Shown one piece after another: positions 3,404 through 27,405 of a stretch of 27,405 bases of DNA. The stretch comes from a virus. The DNA lies in the IMG/VR virus record IMGVR_UViG_3300027849_000050, positions 1 through 27,405 of that record, one strand, 5' to 3'. A program made the position numbers and the translations under genes. Numbering within the stretch: position 1 is the stretch's first letter; the number at the start of each line of letters is the position of its first letter. The notes beneath the pieces are model-generated. The model worked only from the letters and a program-made list of their open reading frames with translations, was not told the origin of the DNA and made no database searches.

Positions 3404-3943
3404 ATGATTAATTTAATATTAGGAGAGATATTCAAAGACGTACCAAACTATGAAGGGCTTTACCAAGTTAGTAACTTTGGTAACGTTAAAAGTTTAGATA
3501 GATACGTTAAGCAGAAAGACAAACGAGGGGTATTAATCACAGCTAACTACAAAGGTAGAACTCTTAAGAAGGAGTTGGTTAGGAATGGTTACTACAGAGT
3601 AACGCTTTCTAGAGGTGATAAACAAAAAAGATTTCAAGTTCATAGGCTAGTGTGTTTTGCTTTCTTAGAGAATCCATTAAACAAACCATGCGTTAATCAC
3701 AAAGATGGTAATGGAATGAATAACGAGTTAACGAATCTAGAATGGTGTACTTATTCAGAAAATGAAAGGCATTCTATTGACGTATTGGGGAAGATTAACG
3801 GTAATAAAAAACTAACAGATTCACAGGTTGAAGATATTAGGTTTAACGCAAAGAAGAGAGTTAATATATCTAGTTATATGGATAAGTACAAAGTGACTAG
3901 GAATATTGTTTTAAATGTATTAAATAATAAATACTATGTCTAA
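3404..3943 (+). CDS. NUMOD4-HNH homing-type endonuclease
   Basis: A 179-residue protein with an N-terminal NUMOD4 domain from about residue 8 (EIFKDVPNYEGLYQVSNFGN) to about 60, then an HNH nuclease core: H80 in VHRLVCFAF, N98-H99, and the NNELTNLEW helix. The last ~50 residues (LTDSQVEDIR, then YKVTRNIVLNVLNN) look like a helix-turn-helix used by this class to contact the target. Such free-standing enzymes cut DNA at specific sites and spread themselves among phages. It sits between the exonuclease and helicase genes and overlaps the helicase gene by 8 bp. No intron is evident. The NUMOD4 part is closely similar to the gene at 11136. Confidence 0.9.
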   Translation: MINLILGEIFKDVPNYEGLYQVSNFGNVKSLDRYVKQKDKRGVLITANYKGRTLKKELVRNGYYRVTLSRGDKQKRFQVHRLVCFAFLENPLNKPCVNHKDGNGMNNELTNLEWCTYSENERHSIDVLGKINGNKKLTDSQVEDIRFNAKKRVNISSYMDKYKVTRNIVLNVLNNKYYV

Positions 3944-7879: not shown

Positions 7880-7900
7880 CTAGCCGTTACCAGACAAGTG

Positions 7901-7932
7901 AAACCCTACTATTAAATTAGTGGGGTTTTTTT
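7901..7932 (+). terminator. Terminator after the OB-fold gene
   Basis: AAACCCTACTA (7901-7911) pairs with TAGTGGGGTTT (7918-7928) with one T-G wobble and a 6-base loop, running into TTTTTTTT. Confidence 0.88.
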
Positions 7933-7944
7933 ATGCATTAAAAA

Positions 7945-7971
7945 GCCCCATCGAAACTAATCCAATGGGGC
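7945..7971 (-). terminator. Second hairpin, T-run on the minus strand
   Basis: GCCCCAT (7945-7951) pairs with ATGGGGC (7965-7971). On the + strand it is followed by CTTCTATTG, but on the - strand by five Ts, so it works better against transcription from the right. It may block antisense transcription, since no minus-strand gene is seen, or act as a back-up terminator. Confidence 0.55.
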
Positions 7972-8102
7972 CTTCTATTGTATAACCAAAAATACAACCA
8001 TAAAACACACCTTGCAAATATATGTGATTAACTCGATAGTAACAGAATCTTAATAGAGAAAATTTAAATTATTTCCTTACCTTAAAAAAAGTAAAGTTTT
8101 TC

Positions 8103-8133
8103 TTGTGGGAACTAATTACATGATTTATATTAG
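8103..8133 (+). promoter_or_regulatory. Promoter, TTG class
   Basis: A -33 TTG at 8103-8105 in the context TTTTTCTTGTGGG and a -7 TATATTAG at 8126-8133 with 20 bp between. It has the same context, spacing and downstream CCGAATATTAATAA as the site at 1786-1816. It would drive the replication unit starting with the acidic protein gene at 8171. Confidence 0.7.
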
Positions 8134-8170
8134 CCGAATATTAATAACAACAATTTAAAAATATAACACA

Positions 8171-8464: not shown

Positions 8465-8504
8465 AATAAATACGAATTTAGTAGATAGATAAGTTATTAT
8501 ACAT

Positions 8505-8512
8505 TATCTTAG
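8505..8512 (+). promoter_or_regulatory. Possible -7 box before the small basic gene
   Basis: TATCTTAG followed by CCAAATATTAAAAATAAC closely resembles the -7 region and start of the promoters at 1786 and 8103 (TATCTTAG, CCGAATATTAATAA). The -33 TTG is missing at 20 bp, so it is likely weak or activator-dependent. Confidence 0.45.
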
Positions 8513-8534
8513 CCAAATATTAAAAATAACCATC

Positions 8535-8762: not shown

Positions 8763-11111
8763 ATGAAAATATCCTATTATAAAAACCTTTACTCATCTTC
8801 ACCTACTAAGGACTTGGATGTTTCCAAAGTGTTAGACCTTATGAGAGGCGAAGAGTACGCACAGTTAATAAAGAACGTTAGGTTTTACATTAATGACGCA
8901 GAGAAACGCTCAGAAGAAAAGAAAAAGTTACCGCTAATTAGCTTCGGTGGTACGTTCACAAGTAGAAAAAAAGACGGAGGCTTAAAGGCTGCCTCTGGTA
9001 TAGCTTGTTTAGATTATGATCACTTACAAGACGTAGCGTTAACTAAAGCTAGAGTAATAGAGGACGATTACACATTGGCCGCTTTCGTATCTCCAAGCGG
9101 TGACGGTTTAAAGGTACTCGTTAGAATCCCTCTAGTGGATAATGACAAGGACTACAAAAGCTTTTACACAGAGCTACAGAAGTATTATAATCAATACGGT
9201 CAAACTGACACAGCTACCAGCGACATCTGCAGAGCTACATTCGTATCTTACGACCCGGAGTTATACACTAACTTAGACAGTGCTTTATTCGCTATCCAAG
9301 CTGCGCCCGTAGTTATCACTGCGCCTGTTATCTATGCTATTAAAGTAGAGGAAACCAACGAGATTGCAAGGCGCTTAATAAAATGGTTTTCTAGCACTTG
9401 GACTACAGGAGCGAACAGAAACAATAACCTTTTTAAGTTAAGTTCAGCGTTCAACACCTATGGTTTACCTTCTAGCATAGCATTAGACTATTGTATGCAG
9501 TACATAAGTAAGGACTTCGGTGCTTCTGAGATTAACCAACTGGTAAACTCGGCTTATAAAAACACGTCAGACTTCGGCACTAAGTCTTTCGAGGATAAGA
9601 CTAAGAGTAACGAAATAGCTAGACTGGTTGGCAACGGACAAAGCCTAGAGGACATAGGTAACAAGATAGAATTAACTGAAGATGTCAAGGCTGAAGTTGC
9701 TAGGTTAACAGATGAATATGATATCAATGTCTTCTGGGATGTAGATGAGAAAGGTAGAATACAACTTAACGCTCTTAGGTTCGATGCTTACTTAGGAGAT
9801 AAAGGAATAGCTAAGTACTATCCATATGAAGGGAATACAGACTTCGAGTTTGTAAAGAAAGACGACAACTTCATAGATTGGATTGACACAACCAGAATTA
9901 AAGATATAGTTAAAAGAGACCTAATTAAGAGGTGCGAGTCTGAAGTGTGGTGTAGTCTTGCTATGAAGACTCAGCTATTTAAAAAGGATATGCTTTCTAT
10001 GTTAGACACTGTGGACGTTCAGCCTAAAAGAGATACTAAGGAAGAGTCTTTCCTATACTACAAAGATTTCGCTGTTCAAACTACAAAAGAAGGATCTAAG
10101 TTAGTAGATTACTCTGAGCTAGAAGAATTGGTTTGGAAGAATCAGGTTATAGACAGAGAGATTAAATTAAACGAAGACTCAGAAGGTGAGTTTAAAACAT
10201 TCATTTGGAATCTAAGCGGTCACGATGCAGAGAGATATTACACTCTTAAATCAGTACTCGGTTACTTACTTCACTCCTATCAGAATGACTCAAAGCCTAA
10301 GGCTATTATCTTTAACGATGAAATGATTTCTGAGGACGTTCCTAACGGGGGGAGCGGTAAAGGTTTAATACACAAAGCAATAGGTCATATTAAGAGTATC
10401 GCAATGGAGAACGGTAAGAAGTGGGATTCAAACTCACAATTCGCTTATCAGAAAGTAAGTAAGGATACTCAGATATTTCAGATTGACGATGTAAACAAAG
10501 GATTCAATTTCGAGAACTTGTTTAGCGTTATTAGTGAAGGAATGACAGTTGAGAAGAAAGGACAAGATAGCTATCAAATACCATTCAAGGAGTCACCAAA
10601 GATTAGCATCACAACTAACTACACCATTAAAGGAGAGGGAAGCTCACACGCTAGAAGAGTATTTGAGGTAGAGGTGGCTAATCATTACAATGCAGATAAT
10701 ACTCCAGAGGATGAGTTCGGACATCAGTTCTTTTCTGAGTGGTCAGAAGAAGAGTGGGGAAAATTCGACAATTATATGATCCGTTCTATACAGTTTTATT
10801 TAGACAGAGGATTAGTAGAATCTAATAAGATAAACTTAGAAGAGCGTAAGTATAAAAACGAATTAGGCGCTGAGTTCATAGAGTTTATGCAGGAAACGCA
10901 GCTAACGGATAGAGTATCTAAGAAAGCATTTCGTGACCTTTTCCACTCAGACTACCCACAACAGGCAAGATACACAACAGCAATGAAGTTCAATAAAAAG
11001 GTTAAGCAGTACTGTTCTTTTCATAAGATAGGATTAGTAGAACTACAGGTTAACGGTGTTCTGTCCTTCGAGTTTACACCAGCTATAAACGAAGACGAAG
11101 CGCCATTTTAA
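8763..11111 (+). CDS. Primase-helicase: BT4734/VirE_N-type primase with SF3-like helicase
   Basis: A 782-residue replication protein. The N-terminal ~180 residues fit the BT4734-like (VirE_N) archaeo-eukaryotic primase fold: LDYD with D84 and D86 as the metal pair, SPSGDGLK at 111-117, and a third acidic region at DTATSDICRATF (149-160). Residues ~195-270 (IARRLIKWFSS to LVNSAYKN) look like a PriCT-type linker domain. A helicase domain follows: Walker A GGSGKG (529-534), Walker B IFQIDD (571-576) and motif C PKISITTN (612-619, sensor Asn 619), an SF3 arrangement. The C-terminal ~100 residues form a winged-helix-like region. It likely primes and unwinds at the phage origin. Such primases are especially common in Bacteroidota and their phages. 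Confidence 0.87.
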   Translation: MKISYYKNLYSSSPTKDLDVSKVLDLMRGEEYAQLIKNVRFYINDAEKRSEEKKKLPLISFGGTFTSRKKDGGLKAASGIACLDYDHLQDVALTKARVIEDDYTLAAFVSPSGDGLKVLVRIPLVDNDKDYKSFYTELQKYYNQYGQTDTATSDICRATFVSYDPELYTNLDSALFAIQAAPVVITAPVIYAIKVEETNEIARRLIKWFSSTWTTGANRNNNLFKLSSAFNTYGLPSSIALDYCMQYISKDFGASEINQLVNSAYKNTSDFGTKSFEDKTKSNEIARLVGNGQSLEDIGNKIELTEDVKAEVARLTDEYDINVFWDVDEKGRIQLNALRFDAYLGDKGIAKYYPYEGNTDFEFVKKDDNFIDWIDTTRIKDIVKRDLIKRCESEVWCSLAMKTQLFKKDMLSMLDTVDVQPKRDTKEESFLYYKDFAVQTTKEGSKLVDYSELEELVWKNQVIDREIKLNEDSEGEFKTFIWNLSGHDAERYYTLKSVLGYLLHSYQNDSKPKAIIFNDEMISEDVPNGGSGKGLIHKAIGHIKSIAMENGKKWDSNSQFAYQKVSKDTQIFQIDDVNKGFNFENLFSVISEGMTVEKKGQDSYQIPFKESPKISITTNYTIKGEGSSHARRVFEVEVANHYNADNTPEDEFGHQFFSEWSEEEWGKFDNYMIRSIQFYLDRGLVESNKINLEERKYKNELGAEFIEFMQETQLTDRVSKKAFRDLFHSDYPQQARYTTAMKFNKKVKQYCSFHKIGLVELQVNGVLSFEFTPAINEDEAPF

Positions 11112-11135: not shown

Positions 11136-11621
11136 ATGGAAATATTTAAAGACATACCAAACTACGAGGGTATTTACCAAGTGAGCAATTTAGGAAATGT
11201 AAAGAGCTTACCAAATAAGAAGCGTTTCTCAGAAAAGATAATGAAACCTCGAAAAAGCACTCTTGGCTATCTTACCTTAGGTCTAAGAAAGGAAGGTAAG
11301 CGTAAAGCGAGAACAGTTCACTCGTTAGTAGCTGAAGCGTTTCTTAACCATACGCCTTGCGGTTATAAGCTAATAGTTAATCATATTGACCACGATAAGC
11401 TAAACAATAAGCTAGATAATTTAGAGTTAGACACGCAAAGAAATAACTCTAACAAAAAGCATTTGAAGAGTTCCTCTGAATACGTTGGGGTTAACTGGGA
11501 TAAGCACGCTAATAAATGGAAGGCTGCAATTTATATAAACGGAAAGCAGAAGCACTTAGGTTACTTCACCTGTGAAAAAGAAGCATCAGAAGCATATCAA
11601 TTTAAACTTAAAAATATATAA
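11136..11621 (+). CDS. NUMOD4-HNH-AP2 homing-type endonuclease
   Basis: A 161-residue protein with three modules. NUMOD4 covers residues 1 to ~45 (EIFKDIPNYEGIYQVSNLGN). The HNH core covers ~60-100, with H62 in VHSLVAEAF, N82-H83, and NNKLDNLELDT. An AP2 DNA-binding domain covers ~115-158 (YVGVNWDKHANKWKAAI, then LGYFTCEKEASEAY). It is closely related in its N-terminus to the gene at 3404, which lacks AP2. It sits 24 bp after the primase gene. These enzymes are selfish elements that cut related genomes lacking the insertion. The AP2 part resembles the stand-alone AP2 protein at 14317. Confidence 0.92.
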   Translation: MEIFKDIPNYEGIYQVSNLGNVKSLPNKKRFSEKIMKPRKSTLGYLTLGLRKEGKRKARTVHSLVAEAFLNHTPCGYKLIVNHIDHDKLNNKLDNLELDTQRNNSNKKHLKSSSEYVGVNWDKHANKWKAAIYINGKQKHLGYFTCEKEASEAYQFKLKNI

Positions 11622-12338: not shown

Positions 12339-12647
12339 ATGGACGGACGAAGAAACAACAAGGGGCAAAAGGGAGCGGCTAACGGTGGAGGGAGACCTAC
12401 TAAGACACAGAAACAACTTTTAGTACAAAGATTATCACCTTTGGATGATGTGGCTCTAACGGCCCTTAAAGAGGCTTTAAATGAAGGGCAAGGTTGGGCG
12501 GTTAAATTGTTCCTCCAGTATCGTCTAGGAATGCCTAAGCAGAGTGTTTCAGTTGAAACAGTTAATTCTCCATTTACACCAATCAATATAGATGTTATCA
12601 AAAACAACGGCTCAGACGAAGATACTGAATTTGAGGAAGAGAGTTAG
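12339..12647 (+). CDS. terS: Small terminase subunit-like protein
   Basis: A 102-residue protein with a basic glycine-rich start (RRNNKGQKGAANGGGRPTK) typical of small terminase or terminase-associated DNA-binding proteins, a helical middle (LDDVALTALKEALNEG, WAVKLFLQYRLGMPKQ) and an acidic tail (GSDEDTEFEEES). The gene lies directly before the large subunit and overlaps it by 56 bp. Small subunits recognise phage DNA and stimulate the packaging ATPase. The call rests mainly on the N-terminal pattern and position; sequence families of TerS are very diverse. Confidence 0.75.
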   Translation: MDGRRNNKGQKGAANGGGRPTKTQKQLLVQRLSPLDDVALTALKEALNEGQGWAVKLFLQYRLGMPKQSVSVETVNSPFTPINIDVIKNNGSDEDTEFEEES

Positions 12648-13761
12648 AATAGTACAGGGAGGCTCAAGTTCTTCTAAGACATTCACTATCTTGCCCATCT
12701 TAATCGCATATTGCACTCAAAACGACAATAAGTTAGTTTCGGTTGTCGCTGAGTCTATACCGCATCTTAGGAGAGGTGCGATACGTGACTTTATAAAGAT
12801 CATGGGGTGGCTTAATAATCCAATGGATTTGTTTAATAAGTCCAATCTAACCTATACGTTTCCTAATGGTAGCCAAATAGAGTTCTTTAGTGCTGATAGT
12901 CCTGATAAGCTTAGAGGGGGTAGGAGAGACGTCTTATTCGTTAACGAGTGTAACAATATAGACTTTGAGAGTTATCAACAGCTTAGTATCCGTTGTAGAG
13001 AGTTTATCTATTTAGATTACAATCCGACTGCTGAGTTCTGGGTACATACGGAATTGAAAGGAGAGGAAGATAGTGACTTCATAATACTCACTTATAAGGA
13101 CAACGAGGCGTTAGAACCAAGTATCATTAATGAATTTAAGAAGGCGATAAAGAAAGCGGCCACATCTGACTACTGGCAGAATTGGGTGAACGTGTACGTC
13201 TATGGTATCATTGGTTCTTTAGAGGGTGTTATATTCAACAACTGGAAGACCATTGATAAGATACCACAGTCAGCTGAGTTATTAGGATACGGCATGGACT
13301 ACGGGTTCTCCAATGATCCTAGTACATTAATAGCTTGTTATAAGCATGACGGTAAGATAATATGGGATGAGCTAATGTATAAGAAAGGAATGTCTAACAG
13401 CGACATGGCAAAGGAAATGAAGCGCCTGAAGGTAGGTTCATCCAAAACCATTGTAGGTGATTCAGCAGAACCTAAGACTATATCTGAACTCAAGTCTTAT
13501 GGTTTCAATATAAGAGGTGCAAAGAAAGGAGCAGATAGTATCAAACATGGTATAGCTTTATTACAAGATTATGAGATGTTAGTCACCAGTAATAGTTTAA
13601 ACCTCATAAAAGAGTTGAGACATTATGCTTGGAATGATAAAAAAGCTAATGTTCCGATTGATAATTACAATCATTTAATTGATGGGATGAGATACTTAGC
13701 TACCGAAAAGCTATCAAACAGGTCTGATTCGGGTGAAATGAACCTAGCGGAAAGATGGTAG
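12592..13761 (+). CDS. terL: Large terminase subunit (packaging ATPase/nuclease)
   Basis: A 389-residue TerL. The ATPase half has a Walker A variant GGSSSSKT (23-30), an adenine-binding region before it, Walker B VLFVNE (114-119) with the catalytic Glu, and the coupling motif DYNP (142-145). The RNase H-like nuclease half has D236 in MDYGFSNDPS, D290 in IVGDSAEP and D364 in NHLIDGMRYL as the metal triad. It translocates DNA into the prohead and cuts it. The start at 12592 overlaps the small subunit by 56 bp; no later ATG leaves the Walker A region intact. It is slightly shorter than many TerL proteins but has every key residue. No portal gene follows; a non-coding block does. Confidence 0.95.
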   Translation: MLSKTTAQTKILNLRKRVRIVQGGSSSSKTFTILPILIAYCTQNDNKLVSVVAESIPHLRRGAIRDFIKIMGWLNNPMDLFNKSNLTYTFPNGSQIEFFSADSPDKLRGGRRDVLFVNECNNIDFESYQQLSIRCREFIYLDYNPTAEFWVHTELKGEEDSDFIILTYKDNEALEPSIINEFKKAIKKAATSDYWQNWVNVYVYGIIGSLEGVIFNNWKTIDKIPQSAELLGYGMDYGFSNDPSTLIACYKHDGKIIWDELMYKKGMSNSDMAKEMKRLKVGSSKTIVGDSAEPKTISELKSYGFNIRGAKKGADSIKHGIALLQDYEMLVTSNSLNLIKELRHYAWNDKKANVPIDNYNHLIDGMRYLATEKLSNRSDSGEMNLAERW

Positions 13762-13830
13762 GTACTGATACTCAGTGCAGAATGAAAAAACACTTTAGTT
13801 AAGTTACTGATTATTAATAGTCTGTAAAAT

Positions 13831-13862
13831 AAAAGGCTTTTATTACTTAAAAAAAGGCTTTT
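13831..13862 (+). repeat. Paired AAAAGGCTTTT boxes, 21 bp apart (copy 1)
   Basis: AAAAGGCTTTT occurs at 13831-13841 and 13852-13862. The start-to-start distance of 21 bp is two helical turns, and the same pair with the same distance is present at 26946-26977. The near-palindromic shape and fixed phase suggest a binding site for a dimeric protein or an RNA element; not proven. Confidence 0.7.
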
Positions 13863-14024
13863 CTGCTTTTACTCTTTTTATCTTATTTTACTCTCTTTTA
13901 TTTACTTTAACTTACTATTAATTAACTCTTTAAAGAAGTATATTAATAGTATATTAATATAGATATAGAGTAGTAGAATGAAAAAAGGACTTTATTTACC
14001 AAGTTGAAAATATATTTGAAGAGG

Positions 14025-14072
14025 CTCTTCTTTTTGTTATAAAATAAGACAAAAGAAAGAAGAGTGTTTTTA
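14025..14072 (+). terminator. Terminator-like hairpin in non-coding copy 1
   Basis: CTCTTC (14025-14030) pairs with GAAGAG (14059-14064) and TTTTGT (14032-14037) with ACAAAA (14049-14054), with a small internal loop, followed by TGTTTTTAT. Its right arm and T-run belong to the 23 bases identical in copy 2, where a matching left arm is also present. Confidence 0.6.
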
Positions 14073-14264
14073 TAATCTATAGAGCTGGAGCCGTTATTTT
14101 TTAATAAACCCTTTTTTTTAGCTTAGTTGATTGATTGATAAGTAACTAACCAAAACAAGAAAACCCTTTTTTTTCCTTTTAAAAGTACTTTATTTTTCAC
14201 CTATCTAACAATCAACTCTTTAAGTGTTTTCAAAAAGCACTTCTGAAAATAGTTAAGATTATTC

Positions 14265-14295
14265 TTGCTATTCTAAGTATTTAATATTACATTAG
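14265..14295 (+). promoter_or_regulatory. Promoter, TTG class, at the end of non-coding copy 1
   Basis: A -33 TTG at 14265-14267 (context ATTCTTGCTA) and a -7 TACATTAG at 14288-14295 are separated by exactly 20 bp, as in the promoters at 1786 and 8103. The downstream TTTAATTAATAACAC is also similar. It would drive the AP2 protein and the two genes after it. Confidence 0.6.
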
Positions 14296-14316
14296 CGTTT
14301 AATTAATAACACAACC

Positions 14317-14487
14317 ATGAAGAAGGTATCAAAAAAAACAGGTGTAGTGTGGGATAATGATATGAAGAAGTGGAGAGCAGCTATACTAATAGGAGCTACT
14401 TACCAGTTTCTACATTACTACGATTCAGAACTAGAGGCGGCAGCAGGATTCAATGAAGCATTAAAAAGATTAGACAATGAAAGATAA
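14317..14487 (+). CDS. Stand-alone AP2-domain protein
   Basis: A 56-residue protein that is essentially one AP2 DNA-binding domain: GVVWDNDMKKWRAAI, a short strand region, then YYDSELEAAAGFNEALKRL. It lines up with the AP2 part of the HNH protein at 11136 (GVNWDKHANKWKAAI, then CEKEASEAY). No nuclease or other domain is attached. It may be a remnant of a homing endonuclease or a free DNA-binding regulator. It is the first gene after the non-coding block and its promoter, and it overlaps the next gene by 11 bp. Confidence 0.75.
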   Translation: MKKVSKKTGVVWDNDMKKWRAAILIGATYQFLHYYDSELEAAAGFNEALKRLDNER

Positions 14488-18900: not shown

Positions 18901-19983
18901 AACAGAGCTTACTATTCTATTCCTGTAATATCTAAGCAATCTATTAACGGAGGTTCACAGCCAGACGCTACTTTTGTACCTACTGTAGCTAATCAGACTG
19001 CGACAGTTACAGAGACTGGTGTATTAAATTTCCAAATCGTTTCAAGTGATAACATCGTCAACCAATTCGTAGAGGTTGATGCGCCTTCATGGATGAGCTT
19101 AAACCAAGATAGTGGAGTACTTAGCGGTACGGCTCCTGCATACTTAGGAACATCTGCTGACACTATTGTGGTTAATTGTAAGGCTGGTAATGCTGTCGGT
19201 GGTACTGTTGAGTTCACAGTAACTATAACGGTTGCACAGGTAGCTTATACAAATAGCAAGTCTCTTAAATTTCCTAGTGGCTCTACTGCATACCTGAACG
19301 GTAATCACGCACTAGTAACGTCTTTGCAGAGAACGGGCAACGGAACAGGGGCAAGTGATGCGTGGAGCATATCAATGTGGGTAAAGCCTTCTACAGTAAC
19401 TAACGCTCAAACATTGCTCTACTACGGTGGAGACGATTTAGCTAACGAAGGTAGAATAGAGATACAGCAATTTAGCGGCAATAATATAGTGTTTAGATAT
19501 GGTAAGAACGCTACGAATACTAACTACATAGGTGTAGGTAATTTCCCGACTGGACAGTGGAATCACATACTAGTTACCTATAGCGGAGCAGACACTCTTA
19601 TTGCTAATGGTGGTGCTACAGCTTTCCAGATGTTCATTAATGGAGTAAATGGAACGAGTCAACTACAGCAGACAGGTGGAGGACATAGTGGTAACATTCC
19701 TGCTGATAAGTTTAGAATAGGTAGGCTTCTAGGGTCTACAACTTCACAATACTTATCTAACGGAATAGTAAACCAAGTGGCTATATTTAATACTGACGAG
19801 ACAGCTAATGTAGCGACTATCTATAATAGTGGTGCGACTCAAGACTTAAGCCTATTGGCTTCTGCTCCTGATCATTATTACGAAATGGAAACCAGTGTAA
19901 CAACTATTCCAGATATCATAGGTAGTGCAGATTTAACGGGATTTAATTTCAGTGCATCAGATTTAGTGACTGATACACCGTAG
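15964..19983 (+). CDS. Tail fibre / receptor-binding adhesin with LamG-like lectin end
   Basis: A 1339-residue virion protein with modular structure. Residues 1-~430 are a non-repetitive N-terminal part, probably for attachment to the particle. Residues ~431-643 are six tandem repeats of 35-37 residues with the pattern SG-x-L-x-GTDL-x-L-x5-D-x5-TID-x-S-x-L. Residues ~645-790 and ~840-985 look like two copies of one beta-sandwich module (IRFGNDGHLTLID versus LRFTDDGTLTLFD). Residues ~1000-1095 are an Ig-like domain (PSWMSLNQDSGVLSGTAP). The last ~240 residues (WSISMWVKPS, GQWNHILVTY, MFINGVNG, RIGRLLG) are a LamG/concanavalin-type lectin fold. This suggests binding to cell-surface glycans. It has its own promoter and terminator. 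Confidence 0.82.
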   Translation: MIKIFRKNNFVVIDATDLPVKYLASNKADFDHVQDGQFVVWNVDNVSEDYTFASAELQGEDGVAIGDTAAVLEYLTTSINFKTGNVSSELITSADIDTLSHFIYNPVTDKLEADRAIETTLNSLFLGEQHKMSSGAENIFFTNLGNNTNFYPMWGGLKDQSLTVNQGSDGFIPPSGRVYSDMFSLPLGGSPTLNTIGYSGSNYFGVNIAGLGITTTAGEDVPANQSLVYYLTVNGRKVYKQILPSTAVRAEGTIFAGDLIEWFFDHPVEIHAGTTIFAEIRKEDRSTDTDLGVFQVREGDELQADGNYRYQAVVHNRLFEDKDLELISPYLKYKAMDFGLDATGSTIILRDLSLSSDNVLVPHAVNTLEAIANGTEIQIKVKGGAKIIVESLPVGAVSVDGSFVNSVLNQAVVQLNAIFTNASGFISPDTFVNSFTLSGNDLTLGLTDGVSYTVDVTTLGVDENNFVSSGSLSGSDLTLTMADATTVVIDASSLAVDTDTIITFGTLVGNDLTLTANDSSTVTIDVTALNVDANLHVVSGVLNGTDLELTMSDASVITVDAISLAIDNNTTVTGGVVSGTDIVLSLSDASLITIDASTLGGAGSSGNPVVSGSVVGTDLVLVLDDATQITIDASNMINGSSGLATSSGWFISYGTNANDAVGTSTNDSTVNQQLPFYFGEALEQGSEFKWNFQNNGGTNLILGIWDGAEVATPYNGGSITPSNWGTSFAYAGGFIDSSNSTLLTTNSGSKYVVSNGDAMGIRFGNDGHLTLIDYSGATEVAVAKTTIALAVTSFNMQMHTWTNGVLPNGIINNVDYIWDIVHDFANTEAGIINGILDHTVIKSALSIEKGEKLMFMLDEVGQGDFFGTNYTAAASGVSTAEEQIDNIFQYQTNEAIVFDTSAGVSDWNANTNAPDYFFAANLNQYRDGGAGTIQGMFSLRFTDDGTLTLFDEDSNVKIATAKSDPTIGSSVNLYFGVKGNRAYYSIPVISKQSINGGSQPDATFVPTVANQTATVTETGVLNFQIVSSDNIVNQFVEVDAPSWMSLNQDSGVLSGTAPAYLGTSADTIVVNCKAGNAVGGTVEFTVTITVAQVAYTNSKSLKFPSGSTAYLNGNHALVTSLQRTGNGTGASDAWSISMWVKPSTVTNAQTLLYYGGDDLANEGRIEIQQFSGNNIVFRYGKNATNTNYIGVGNFPTGQWNHILVTYSGADTLIANGGATAFQMFINGVNGTSQLQQTGGGHSGNIPADKFRIGRLLGSTTSQYLSNGIVNQVAIFNTDETANVATIYNSGATQDLSLLASAPDHYYEMETSVTTIPDIIGSADLTGFNFSASDLVTDTP
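17254..17892 (+). repeat. Six ~105-bp in-frame coding repeats in the fibre gene
   Basis: Four units of exactly 35 codons followed by units of 37 and ~36 codons. The protein consensus has GTDL-x-L and TID-x-S-x-L. DNA identity between units is modest, so the array is old rather than a recent tandem duplication. It likely forms a stalk of repeated beta hairpins. Confidence 0.85.
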
Positions 19984-20012
19984 TTAGTTTTATTAGTTTA
20001 ATTGGTTTAAGG

Positions 20013-20046
20013 AGCGTCATGGATTAAATTCTGTGGCGCTTCTTTA
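20013..20046 (+). terminator. Terminator after the fibre gene
   Basis: AGCGTCA (20013-20019) pairs with TGGCGCT (20034-20040) with one wobble and a 14-base loop, followed by TCTTTAT. It abuts the promoter at 20044. Confidence 0.7.
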
Positions 20047-20098: not shown

Positions 20099-20533
20099 AT
20101 GGCCGTAGAATTAATTAAGAAAGTTGCTGAAGATAATGACTGGAGTTTTAGCTACGGCAGCGGGGCATGGCAAAATTTAGCTGACCACAAATCAGAATTC
20201 AGAAAAGACTTTGAAGATAGAAAGGTTCACTGCCTTTTGTACACTGTAACAAAGAATGAAGTTTACAACGACTTTGGAGGATTAGACTCTGAGACTTATT
20301 CATGCGTTTTACTTATGGGCGTAAGTTCTAACTTTAATGACAAAGATTATAATTTCAAGTGGGAGAACAATCTCAAACCAATGATAGAAACAAGAGTGGA
20401 AACTCTTAAAGCTGGATTGAGTGATTGCAGTTACACATTAACGGGCGGTTTATCTCAAAAAGAATTCTCAAACCTATTCGACAACAACTTAGACGGCATT
20501 ACTTTAGAGTTTACCTTAACTAAGACTCAATAA
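20099..20533 (+). CDS. Probable minor tail / tail-completion protein
   Basis: A 144-residue protein with alternating beta strands (KVHCLLYTV, ETYSCVLLMGVSS, GITLEFTLTKT) around a central helix (LKPMIETRVETLKAGL). I recognise no specific motif. It is the first gene of the tail unit, and size and position fit tail terminator or completion proteins. The TAA shares its last base with the next ATG. The role is inferred mainly from neighbours. Confidence 0.55.
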   Translation: MAVELIKKVAEDNDWSFSYGSGAWQNLADHKSEFRKDFEDRKVHCLLYTVTKNEVYNDFGGLDSETYSCVLLMGVSSNFNDKDYNFKWENNLKPMIETRVETLKAGLSDCSYTLTGGLSQKEFSNLFDNNLDGITLEFTLTKTQ

Positions 20534-24104: not shown

Positions 24105-26834
24105 ATGAAAACTCAAATACTATTTAAAGCAGACATAGATACTGAAGGTTTTAAAGCCAAAATAGAAGGGCTTAAAGGCGGTATAAGTGATCTTACTGTC
24201 GAGCAGACTAAACTAGACACATCTACAAAAGAGGGGGCGGCTGCTTTCGTTAAAAACGATGCAGCTATTAGAAAGCTCACTAGTGAATCCAAGAAGTATG
24301 AGAGAGTGCTCAAGGATTTAAGCATGGGGTCTGTCGATGCTGCTCTAAACAATAAGACGTTAAACGACTCTTTAGACGCAGAGGTTAAAAGTATTAACCA
24401 AGCCAGAGCAAGCAATAAGAAGTTACTAGCAATAAGAAATGACCTGAACCTATCTACTGACGAAGGCTCTGACGCACAGGAAAAGATAAACGACCAAATA
24501 GAGAAAAATAATGAATTCATTAAAACGAACGTAGGAGCATTAGAAAAGCAAAAAATAAACATCGGTAACTATAGTAGTGCCTTAAGTGGTGCTGAATCAG
24601 CTTCTAAGGGTGCCAATAATAAGACAGTGGATCTAACCGCGTCTTTTGAGGATATGCACGGTGAAATGAAGCCGCTTACAAATAGAATGGGTGAGATGGA
24701 AGACAGGTTGTATGAATTAGCACAGGCTGGAGATATGGCTTCTGATGAATTCAAGCAATTAACCGCTGAAGCAGGTAGATTAAAGAAGGCTCAACAAGAC
24801 GTTGACTTAGCTGTGGATTCTGCTGCTACTACTATGGGGCAAAAACTAGGAGGTGCTGCTTCTTTTGCTGCTGGTAGCTTGGAGGTTGTGGTTGGTGGTA
24901 TGACCGCTATGGGCGTAGAGTCTGAAGAGGCGGAGCAAGCAATTGCTGGGGTCGTGGGTGCTATGGCTGTGACTGATGGGGTAGAGACTATGAGGGAAAG
25001 TTTCCACGCGGTTAAAGATTTAGGCAGAGCCATTAAAAGCTCCACTATATTCCAGAAACTAGCGGCTGCCGCACAATGGTTATGGAATGCTGCACTCAAC
25101 GCGAACCCTATCGGTTTAATAGTGATGGGGGTAGGAGCCTTAATTACCGCAGGTTATGGTTTACTGAAATTATTCCAATTCTTAACTAAAGACACAGATA
25201 ATTCTGCGGAGGCTAATATAAGAAAAGCCGATTCACTCAAGGAATTAGAAAAGCAACAACGCAAAAACTCAGCGGAAACAAAAAAAGCCTCGGAAAACGA
25301 GCTAGATCTAGCCAGAGCAAGCGGTGCAAGTAAAGACGCAATTAGAGCCTTAGAGAGAGCAATAGCAGGTAAGAATATAACAGCGGCAGAGGAGCTTAAA
25401 TTAACTCGTTTACGTATTGTAGAGCAGGAAAAACTAGCCTTAGTAGCTTTGAGAAATGCCGATGCTGACAGTGAAGAATTAGAGGCACAAGAAGAAAGAC
25501 TAGAGACAGCACGTAAGGGGTTTAAGGAAGCAATTAAACTTGAAAAGGAAGCACACGAAGAGAGGAAGGAATTAACACATAAATACGCAGTTGAGGATGC
25601 CACTGAGAAAACACGCGCAGAAGACGAGCAGAAAGCAAGCCGAAAAACAGCACGAAACAATAAAAAGGCAGATAACGATAAAGACAAAGAGACTGCTAAA
25701 CAGAAGTTAATTGACGATGCAAAGATAATAGAGGATAGTCAAAAGAAAGCAGTTGAAATGGAAGCTGAACACGCTTTACAGATGGCTGAGGCTGCGTTTC
25801 GTGAAGATGATTTGACACCAGAGCAATTAGCAGAGAAAGGAGCAGCATTAGCTGAAGCTCAACAAGGAATTTATGACGTTGCTTTAGAGGCGTTAAAAGA
25901 GGATTTTAACAATAAGTTAATAAGTCAAGAAGAGTACGATATTTCTGTAGAGATGCTTAAGGATGTTAGGGATGAGAAAAACATAGAAAGGCAGGAAGTT
26001 TTAGACGCAGACCAAGACGAGAGAGACGCGGAGCAAGCAGAAAAAGATAAGATAAAAGGAGATAAAGAAATAGAAGGCGCTGAGTTTGTGGCTGCTGCTA
26101 AGGCTCAAATACGTGACCAGAACATTAACAGCGTAGCTGATGGTGTAGCATTACTAGCTAGTCTAGACGATAAAAATAAAGGTTTACAGATTGCTAGTAT
26201 ATTAGCCGCTAATGCTGCGCAAATAGCTAAAACAGTAATAGCCACACAGGCGGCTAACGCTGTTATAACAGCTGAAGGTCTAGCTTTATCTATACCTACC
26301 TTAGGGGCTTCTGTAGTTACTGCTGCTGGTTTAGTGGCCTCTAACAATATATCTGCCGGTATCAGTATCGGTGGCATGGCTGCTGCTGCTGCTAAAGGTG
26401 TAGCAGGTCTGAATAAGAAAGCAGAAAGAGGTATCTCGTTTGAAGGTACTCTACAGGGAGCATCACACGCTAATGGAGGTATAGACTTAGGAAACGGTGT
26501 AGAGGCTGAAGGTGGAGAGAATATGTACGTTTCTGGAGGTCAAACACACATAGTGAATAAGAAAGCCTCTAGTCTTATTAATAGGCTTGGTATCATGGGA
26601 GCTTTATCTATGATAAACCAGAGAGAGGGAAACGGTATAGCTTTAAATGTTCCAACTTCTTTTGCTGCTAGAGGAGGTTTAGTTTCGACAGGAAACAATG
26701 TAGAAATAGATTACGCGAAATTAACAGAGGCATTTATAACAGGAGGCGCTCAAATTAGACCTACCGTTTCTGTTACAGATATTAACAACGTCGGTAGCAG
26801 AATGATTTCAGTTAGTGATTTCTCAACGATTTAG
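24105..26834 (+). CDS. Tape measure protein
   Basis: A 909-residue protein with the tape measure pattern. A long coiled-coil N-terminus is rich in Lys, Glu, Ala and Gln (~1-300). A hydrophobic segment around NPIGLIVMGVGALITAGYG (~330-350) is followed by another long charged coiled coil (~370-680). A second hydrophobic Ala/Gly-rich stretch lies at ~695-770, and the C-terminal region contains SHANGGIDLGNG and ISGG-type turns ending in a short tail. It sets tail length and helps pass DNA into the host; at about 0.15 nm per residue it would predict a tail near 135 nm. It is the last gene before the second non-coding block, downstream of the baseplate-like genes rather than upstream as usual. Confidence 0.88.
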   Translation: MKTQILFKADIDTEGFKAKIEGLKGGISDLTVEQTKLDTSTKEGAAAFVKNDAAIRKLTSESKKYERVLKDLSMGSVDAALNNKTLNDSLDAEVKSINQARASNKKLLAIRNDLNLSTDEGSDAQEKINDQIEKNNEFIKTNVGALEKQKINIGNYSSALSGAESASKGANNKTVDLTASFEDMHGEMKPLTNRMGEMEDRLYELAQAGDMASDEFKQLTAEAGRLKKAQQDVDLAVDSAATTMGQKLGGAASFAAGSLEVVVGGMTAMGVESEEAEQAIAGVVGAMAVTDGVETMRESFHAVKDLGRAIKSSTIFQKLAAAAQWLWNAALNANPIGLIVMGVGALITAGYGLLKLFQFLTKDTDNSAEANIRKADSLKELEKQQRKNSAETKKASENELDLARASGASKDAIRALERAIAGKNITAAEELKLTRLRIVEQEKLALVALRNADADSEELEAQEERLETARKGFKEAIKLEKEAHEERKELTHKYAVEDATEKTRAEDEQKASRKTARNNKKADNDKDKETAKQKLIDDAKIIEDSQKKAVEMEAEHALQMAEAAFREDDLTPEQLAEKGAALAEAQQGIYDVALEALKEDFNNKLISQEEYDISVEMLKDVRDEKNIERQEVLDADQDERDAEQAEKDKIKGDKEIEGAEFVAAAKAQIRDQNINSVADGVALLASLDDKNKGLQIASILAANAAQIAKTVIATQAANAVITAEGLALSIPTLGASVVTAAGLVASNNISAGISIGGMAAAAAKGVAGLNKKAERGISFEGTLQGASHANGGIDLGNGVEAEGGENMYVSGGQTHIVNKKASSLINRLGIMGALSMINQREGNGIALNVPTSFAARGGLVSTGNNVEIDYAKLTEAFITGGAQIRPTVSVTDINNVGSRMISVSDFSTI

Positions 26835-26896
26835 AGCTAAAATGATGCTGTAACTAACTAAGGTTCAGTGGAAAATGAAAAAATAATCTAAGTTCC

Positions 26897-26919
26897 CTAA
26901 CTCTATGTCACTGAGTTAG
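26897..26919 (+). terminator. Possible hairpin after the tape measure gene
   Basis: CTAACTC (26897-26903) pairs with GAGTTAG (26913-26919), loop TATGTCACT. The following TGGCGCTTATGTTTATT is only partly T-rich, so it would be a weak terminator. No comparable hairpin is clear at this point in copy 1. Confidence 0.45.
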
Positions 26920-26945
26920 TGGCGCTTATGTTTATTGTTATTCAA

Positions 26946-26977
26946 AAAAGGCTTTTCTCAAACAAAAAAAGGCTTTT
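26946..26977 (+). repeat. Paired AAAAGGCTTTT boxes, 21 bp apart (copy 2)
   Basis: AAAAGGCTTTT at 26946-26956 and 26967-26977, the same start-to-start distance as in copy 1 although the bases between them differ partly. Confidence 0.7.
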
Positions 26978-27138
26978 CTGCTTTTACTCTTTTTTCTTAC
27001 TATTTACTATCTATTTACTCTTTAACTTACTCTTTACTAACTATTTAAAGAAGTATTTATTCTTAATAAATAGTAAAGAATAGATAAAAGAATGAAAAAA
27101 TAGAATAAATATAGAGATTCAGATTCAAATAAAACGTG

Positions 27139-27188
27139 TCTTCTTTTTATTAAAAAAACGTACATGAAAAAAGAAGAGTGTTTTTATA
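27139..27188 (+). terminator. Terminator-like hairpin in non-coding copy 2
   Basis: TCTTCTTTTT (27139-27148) pairs with AAAAAGAAGA (27168-27177), followed by GTGTTTTTAT. The left arm differs from copy 1 but still pairs. Confidence 0.6.
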
Positions 27189-27388
27189 ATCTCTTAGGGT
27201 AGCCGTTTAGTTTTCATTTTTCACTTCTTTAGCCTCTTTTTAAGCCTAACTAACTGATTGCTTCAATAGTAACCAAAAGTGTTTTTTACTTCTAAAACTC
27301 TTCCAGAAGTACTTTATTTTACAGCCCATTAAAACTCAGCTATTTAAGTGCTTCATGTTTTTTACTTTTACTTTTTATAAGATTTATC

Positions 27389-27391
27389 TTG
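27389..27391 (+). promoter_or_regulatory. Incomplete promoter: -33 TTG at the window edge
   Basis: TTG in ATCTTGCTA matches the -33 box of copy 1. With the usual 20-bp spacing, the -7 box would lie at 27412-27419, outside the window. Confidence 0.4.
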
Positions 27392-27405
27392 CTACTTTCG
27401 ATAAG

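Follow-up and report, generated by a model that had tools for sequence, protein, structure and literature searches.

What could a tailed phage use two long gene-free stretches for, when both carry the same sequence in diverged form? This question is raised by a linear IMG/VR record of 27,405 bp (the window, by which we mean the whole stretch of DNA that was analysed), in which one such block, B1, lies in the middle and another, B2, runs into the right end (Table 1). A first-pass annotation, made from the sequence alone, had described the blocks as copies of one element at unit boundaries and had offered three functions for them: a structured RNA, a regulatory platform, or a DNA site such as an origin.

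Genome context of the two blocks

The window phage is a flavobacterial phage. The named phages with the closest TerL are those of Flavobacterium psychrophilum, for example Fpv5 (54.6%), and the closest IMG/VR records are contigs at 53–62%. The genes before TerL encode an exonuclease (42–1316), an Erf-like annealing protein, a RecE-like exonuclease, a helicase, a methyltransferase, an SSB and an AEP primase-helicase (8763–11111), and the primase carries a BT4734-like_N domain plus a sub-threshold DUF5906 match. They are followed by TerL, B1, the late genes, the tape-measure gene and B2. The location at unit boundaries thus fits, with B1 after TerL and B2 after the tape-measure gene. In relatives, the late module ends with the exonuclease gene, some 9 kb past the tape measure, so the window probably represents part of a circularly permuted genome, with several kb absent between its end and its start.

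The first gene after B1 is a small stand-alone ORF without a Pfam match, which resembles part of HNH endonucleases (AP2-like; compare 11136–11621) and may be a gene remnant or may encode a small DNA-binding protein. Two NUMOD4-HNH homing-endonuclease genes were found at 3404–3943 and 11136–11621, with 78% identity across 72 bp at the 5' end.

Table 1. Coordinates of the features discussed (window positions, except for the last row)
Feature	Position	Strand	Remarks
Block B1	13762–14316	.	24% G+C; gene-free; from terL (12592–13761) to next ORF (14317)
Block B2	26835–27405	.	27% G+C; gene-free; after tape-measure gene (24105–26834), into contig end
Island pair AAAAGGCTTTT ... AAAAAAAGGCTTTTCTGCTTTTACTCTTTTT, B1	13831–13879	+	90% identical to 26946–26994
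Counterpart of AAAAGGCTTTT ... AAAAAAAGGCTTTTCTGCTTTTACTCTTTTT islands, B2	26946–26994	+	90% identical to 13831–13879
Iteron-like direct repeats, B1	13867–13924	+	Four TTACTHT: 13869, 13888, 13902, 13912
Iteron-like direct repeats, B2	26983–27047	+	Five TTACTHT: 26984, 26997, 27004, 27015, 27027
Least stable 100 bp of window, duplex-unwinding-like, B1	13868–13967	.	Nearest-neighbour profile, z 4.2
Second least stable 100 bp of window, B2	27014–27113	.	Nearest-neighbour profile, z 3.8
Hairpin HP2, B1: CTCTTCTTTTTG.../...AAAGAAAGAAGAG	14017–14072	+	3' arm within 23-nt identical island
Hairpin HP2, B2: TCTTCTTTTT/AAAAAGAAGA	27131–27185	+	
Island with 9-bp stem and long loop, B1: AAAGTACTT/AAGTGTTTT	14182–14230	.	
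Counterpart of this stem, B2: GAAGTACTT/AAGTGCTTC	~27306–27354		
Promoter TTCTTG-N20-TACATTAG, right edge of B1	14262–14295	+	21 bp before ATG at 14317
ATCTTG, B2 counterpart of the promoter's upstream box	27386–27391	+	From B1/B2 alignment; downstream box would lie past contig end
56-aa stand-alone ORF, first gene after B1	14317–14487	+	Resembles part of HNH endonucleases (phrog_99, E 9.2e-7)
Post-TerL blocks of relatives	L064 11150–11568; L069 9923–10370; L070 3272–3807		TTTGCGTC, TTATCAACA content

B1 and B2 are diverged copies of one element

A search of the record with B1 returned B2 at 26946–27192 (76% over 247 nt, E 3.4e-37) and, as a second match, at 27307–27353 (81%, E 1.3e-5). The local alignment of the two blocks scored 206, whereas none of 300 dinucleotide shuffles scored above 46, which confirmed that they are diverged copies of one element. 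An assembly duplicate was ruled out, because even the best-matching part shows differences at about one position in four. The results also showed eight islands in conserved order, each with at least nine identical columns, as had been proposed; the longest spans 31 nt (13849–13879/26964–26994), and the next is the 23-nt island (14056–14078/27170–27192) already pointed out. Identical columns were clustered beyond chance in column permutations (longest run p 0.0002; sum of the top eight p 0/5000), with the caveat that the aligner itself favours identical runs. Identity is ~61% across the homologous span, rising to 80–88% in the two best 50-column stretches and standing at 38–62% elsewhere. The extents first given for the two copies need small corrections: homology begins only at 13831/26946, inside the block edges, and B2 is cut by the contig end (27405), so the right edge seen here may not be its true one.

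The G+C content of the whole window is 37%, well above that of either block. There is no ORF of more than 40 aa in B1, and the single 54-aa T-rich frame of B2 has no counterpart in B1, so no ORF is conserved across the blocks and a coding function was ruled out. A gene in the block, which the first-pass annotation had named among the findings that would speak against it, was not found, and neither block contains a tRNA.

No block similar to B1 or B2 was found in phage or IMG/VR records, save the positional blocks of three relatives that are described below. Exact and gapped pattern searches of IMG/VR found none; a looser gapped pattern gave 7 matches, all in coding-type sequence without homology to the window, which we took as chance. 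Searching a phage collection with the blocks gave chance-level matches only, and BLAST of both blocks against the collected loci gave nothing significant.

Direct repeats and unstable stretches in the two blocks

The strongest non-coding tandem repeats of the window, as called by TRF, sit in B1 and B2. In B1, TRF reported a period of 19 (13867–13909, 2.3 copies, score 63), and TTACTHT occurs four times against 1.2 expected, although this p of 0.03 is nominal only, the motif having been picked after looking, and unbiased k-mer counts were at chance level. The B2 repeat (period 30, also 12) has a score of 95, the highest in the window; TTACTHT is enriched here (7 against 1.0 expected, again for a motif chosen after looking), the word TTTACT is present in 7 copies (p 0.004), and B2 was the only block with significant unbiased word counts.

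An adjacent AT-rich, easily melted region, as looked for in iteron-type origins, was present in both blocks (Table 1). Within the unstable stretch of B1 there is an imperfect inverted repeat (HP1), and that of B2 holds one of the same kind. DnaA boxes, which are common but not universal in iteron-type origins, were absent from both blocks (pattern TTAT[CA][CA]ACA), and the GC skew did not switch at either of them.

The island pair at the left of B1 forms a weak stem (AAAGGC/GCTTTT) with a T-rich tail, which is at most terminator-like. A scan for intrinsic terminators (GC-rich stem, then a T run) called nothing in B1 and gave one weak call in B2 (26906–26924), outside the conserved part. Elsewhere in the window, two GC-rich terminator-like hairpins were observed at 7898–7973, between the SSB gene and 8171, where an Rfam match to ncr1175 was far below threshold; no terminator as strong as these is present in B1 or in the conserved part of B2.

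Folding of the blocks as RNA

The blocks could encode or form a structured RNA, either a small RNA or a structured 3' UTR or processing region of read-through transcripts. On the + strand, their fold energies were better than those of dinucleotide shuffles (z -4.6 for B1 and -2.1 for B2), and the two-sequence consensus fold beat column shuffles with a z of -5.7, a value that such shuffles inflate. Moreover, in 16 of the 80 consensus pairs both partners are changed from one copy to the other, and the stems of HP2 and of the island with the long loop are kept in both copies. However, two alignable sequences allow no meaningful covariation test, and HP2 and the right part of the element are near chance in B2. 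HP1, from which the main folding signal comes, folds on both strands, the + strand being better in B1 and the - strand in B2, and this opposite preference fits an RNA no better than it fits repeated sites in two orientations or an inverted repeat acting as DNA. Searching with Rfam 15 covariance models (phage ncRNAs, riboswitches, group I/II introns and others) gave no match in the blocks at E up to 1, and two irrelevant matches elsewhere in the window. In addition, the promoter of B1 described below is at its right end, so the block itself would not be transcribed from it. We consider an RNA function improbable: the favourable folding energies behind this option stood, but a consistent strand bias and an Rfam match were both lacking. 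A group I intron or other ribozyme was rejected, as Rfam gave no match and both blocks are intergenic.

A promoter motif at the right edge of B1

The housekeeping promoter of Bacteroidetes, including Flavobacterium, has a -7 box of TAnnTTTG (PMC9723704). A Bacteroidetes-type promoter, defined as TTG, ~20 nt and TAnnTTnG a short distance ahead of an ORF, was found at the right edge of B1 (Table 1). It resembles the housekeeping promoter in having TTG followed by a TAnnTTnG box, and differs from it in that the box is TAnnTTAG at 20-nt spacing, which is common to two other promoters of this genome. The pattern TTCTTG-N20-TAnnTTAG occurs 3 times in the window, at 1783, 8100 and 14262, against 0.03 expected, and each site stands shortly before an ORF. 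In B2, the contig ends 14 nt after the ATCTTG that corresponds to the upstream box.

Other promoter-like repeats were also observed. A 68-nt promoter-leader unit of the same promoter class as the B1 edge is present three times before early genes (1769–1836, 8086–8153 and 8465–8532), and two of the three copies carry [TTCTTG]N20[TAnnTTAG]. A second, different pair (15894–15938/20035–20079; 45 nt, 80% identical, ending TTATCTTTGCTT) precedes the gene of a large lectin-domain protein (15964) and the gene at 20099. In Flavobacterium phage Fpv5, a different non-coding promoter-leader sequence is repeated, 84–89% identical, at 19967–20046, 27033–27111 and 24304–24355 of its locus (L006).

Post-TerL blocks in three related phages

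Using a TerL profile scan, we collected 80 loci of relatives. In three of them (L064, L069 and L070), whose TerL proteins are 60% identical to that of the window, the gap directly after TerL is 419, 448 and 536 bp long, respectively, with 26–28% G+C, compared with less than 150 bp in most other loci. These gaps occupy exactly the position of B1, between TerL and the first late gene. The L064 and L069 blocks are 95% identical, and that of L070 matches at 73% over 160 bp. The motif TTTGCGTC was found 11 times in the L064 locus (1.35 expected) and 7 times in the L070 locus (1.09 expected). In L064, three copies are spaced at 20–21 bp with the DnaA-box-like TTATCAACA between them (TRF period 20, 91% matches); further copies in both orientations are present in the relatives' blocks, and ordered direct repeats of ~17–22 bp are clear in L064 and L070. 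In two of the three relatives, a TTTGCGTCTTTGCGTC pair of these repeats, with an upstream GACGCAAA, forms part of the leader directly before the AEP primase-helicase gene, and in the third it lies one gene upstream.

Iterons common to the post-TerL block and the primase-helicase leader are the layout expected of one DNA-binding protein at both. In the relatives, a single protein would then bind both a replication site and its own operator, and operon boundaries would share control sequences; the post-TerL iteron blocks are probable replication origins of this uncultivated phage group. A palindrome, CTTATTTAGAATGATTCTAAATAAG, in the right part of the relatives' block recurs in part just after the exonuclease gene, another operon boundary. 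It was rejected as a terminator, because no T run follows it, and a role as operator or structural element is more likely.

The window blocks resemble those of the relatives in position (B1), length, AT content and the order of tandem repeats, AT-rich stretch and hairpin. They differ in the repeat itself, as TTTGCGTC does not occur in the window, and sequence similarity is weak: B2 against the L064-genome block scored above all 300 shuffles by one point, and the other comparisons gave p from 0.017 to 0.35 (0.09–0.35 for B1). Homology between the two sets of blocks therefore rests mainly on position. No full second copy was seen in the parts of the relatives examined. The alignment suggested in the first-pass annotation succeeded between B1 and B2; in other phages it returned no similar block beyond this marginal resemblance.

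The narrow distribution is what would be expected if the pair came from a past duplication or a mosaic-exchange linker, kept as young or recombinogenic, with islands that have no present function. The lack of similar sequence in other phages marks the element as narrow and fast-changing, and relatives lack a gap where B2 stands. The clustering of the islands (p 0.0002), the promoter motif of B1 and the comparably long gene-free blocks that relatives have at the B1 position all argue against this origin of the pair, and we regard it as very unlikely.

Comparison with iteron-type origins

Staphylococcal islands have initiators of the primase-helicase type that act through iterons; in SCCmec, the short direct repeats bound by the Cch2 helicase lie in an intergenic region together with inverted repeats (PMC7581432). 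One or both blocks of the window may likewise be iteron-type origins, at which the AEP primase-helicase or another initiator would bind the repeats, melt the core and load a fork, the second copy serving as a second or spare origin. Like staphylococcal pathogenicity-island Rep origins, the Cch2 site and the origins of iteron plasmids, B1 and B2 are non-coding and AT-rich with direct and inverted repeats, they hold tandem repeats together with the least stable stretches, and the genome encodes a primase-helicase. The relatives add 20-bp iterons with DnaA-box-like sites and an AT-rich flank in the block, and the same iterons before the primase-helicase gene. In contrast to known iteron origins, the window repeats are degenerate, the window contains no known iteron and its blocks no DnaA box, neither block adjoins the primase-helicase gene, and the element is present twice, at a distance of 13 kb. 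Iteron origins go with a cognate initiator gene that is usually autoregulated through these sites. A candidate initiator is present in the window; the shared upstream sites are found in the relatives and not in the window, where no B1/B2 repeat lies beside the primase gene. There is no skew switch, and origin function is itself an inference even in the relatives. This reading is possible but unlikely. In our view the element works like an iteron-type control or origin region, yet it is not assigned to that class, because DnaA boxes and operator-origin pairing are absent in the window and the B1 repeats are weak.

Discussion

With little more than even confidence, we favour the reading that the element of which B1 and B2 are diverged copies is an operon-boundary control element acting as DNA. 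Among the three functions first offered, the regulatory platform is the best supported, because a promoter lies at the right edge of B1 and a gene-free block recurs at the same position in three relatives. The absence of TTTGCGTC and of DnaA-box-like sites from the window blocks, the weakness of the B1 repeats, the marginal similarity to the relatives' blocks, the lack of a B1/B2 repeat beside the primase gene, the unchanged GC skew and a B2 promoter of which the contig holds the upstream box at most speak against a control element. The DNA site or origin is backed by analogy, through the iterons and DnaA-box-like sites of the relatives and the repeats and unstable stretches of the window, and it is plausible, if unproven, that at least the B1 position serves as an origin.

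Each block comes after the last gene of a module. From left to right, it has short T-tailed repeats, a direct-repeat array (clear in B2, weak in B1), a very AT-rich core, a conserved hairpin and a promoter. The array probably binds a phage protein, and the promoter, whose motif is present in B1 and which in B2 would be cut off by the contig end, would start the next operon. The bound protein would set the time at which the late operons are switched on, and it may also melt the AT-rich core and so start replication, at least at the B1 position, in the manner of iteron-type origins. A stronger version, in which both copies are active and one initiator-type protein is responsible for the start of replication as well as for turning on two late operons, so that replication and late transcription are coupled at each boundary, seems to us very improbable.

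Repeated non-coding sequences near promoters at gene junctions are a feature of other phages, as in the start-associated sequences of mycobacteriophage cluster K and the boundary sequences of lambdoid phages, which are tens of bp long. The blocks described here are alike in that similar non-coding sequence stands at several junctions of one genome, and differ in being ~450–550 bp long, with internal repeats and hairpins.

In phages of Bacteroidetes, the timing of late genes and the start of replication are little known. The gene-free space itself marks such sites: there is a post-TerL block in several relatives, its iterons are common to the primase-helicase leader, and a second, diverged copy exists in the window. 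If the control-element reading is true, these blocks would offer candidate origins and late promoters that can be tested in a group of phages that is abundant but poorly studied.
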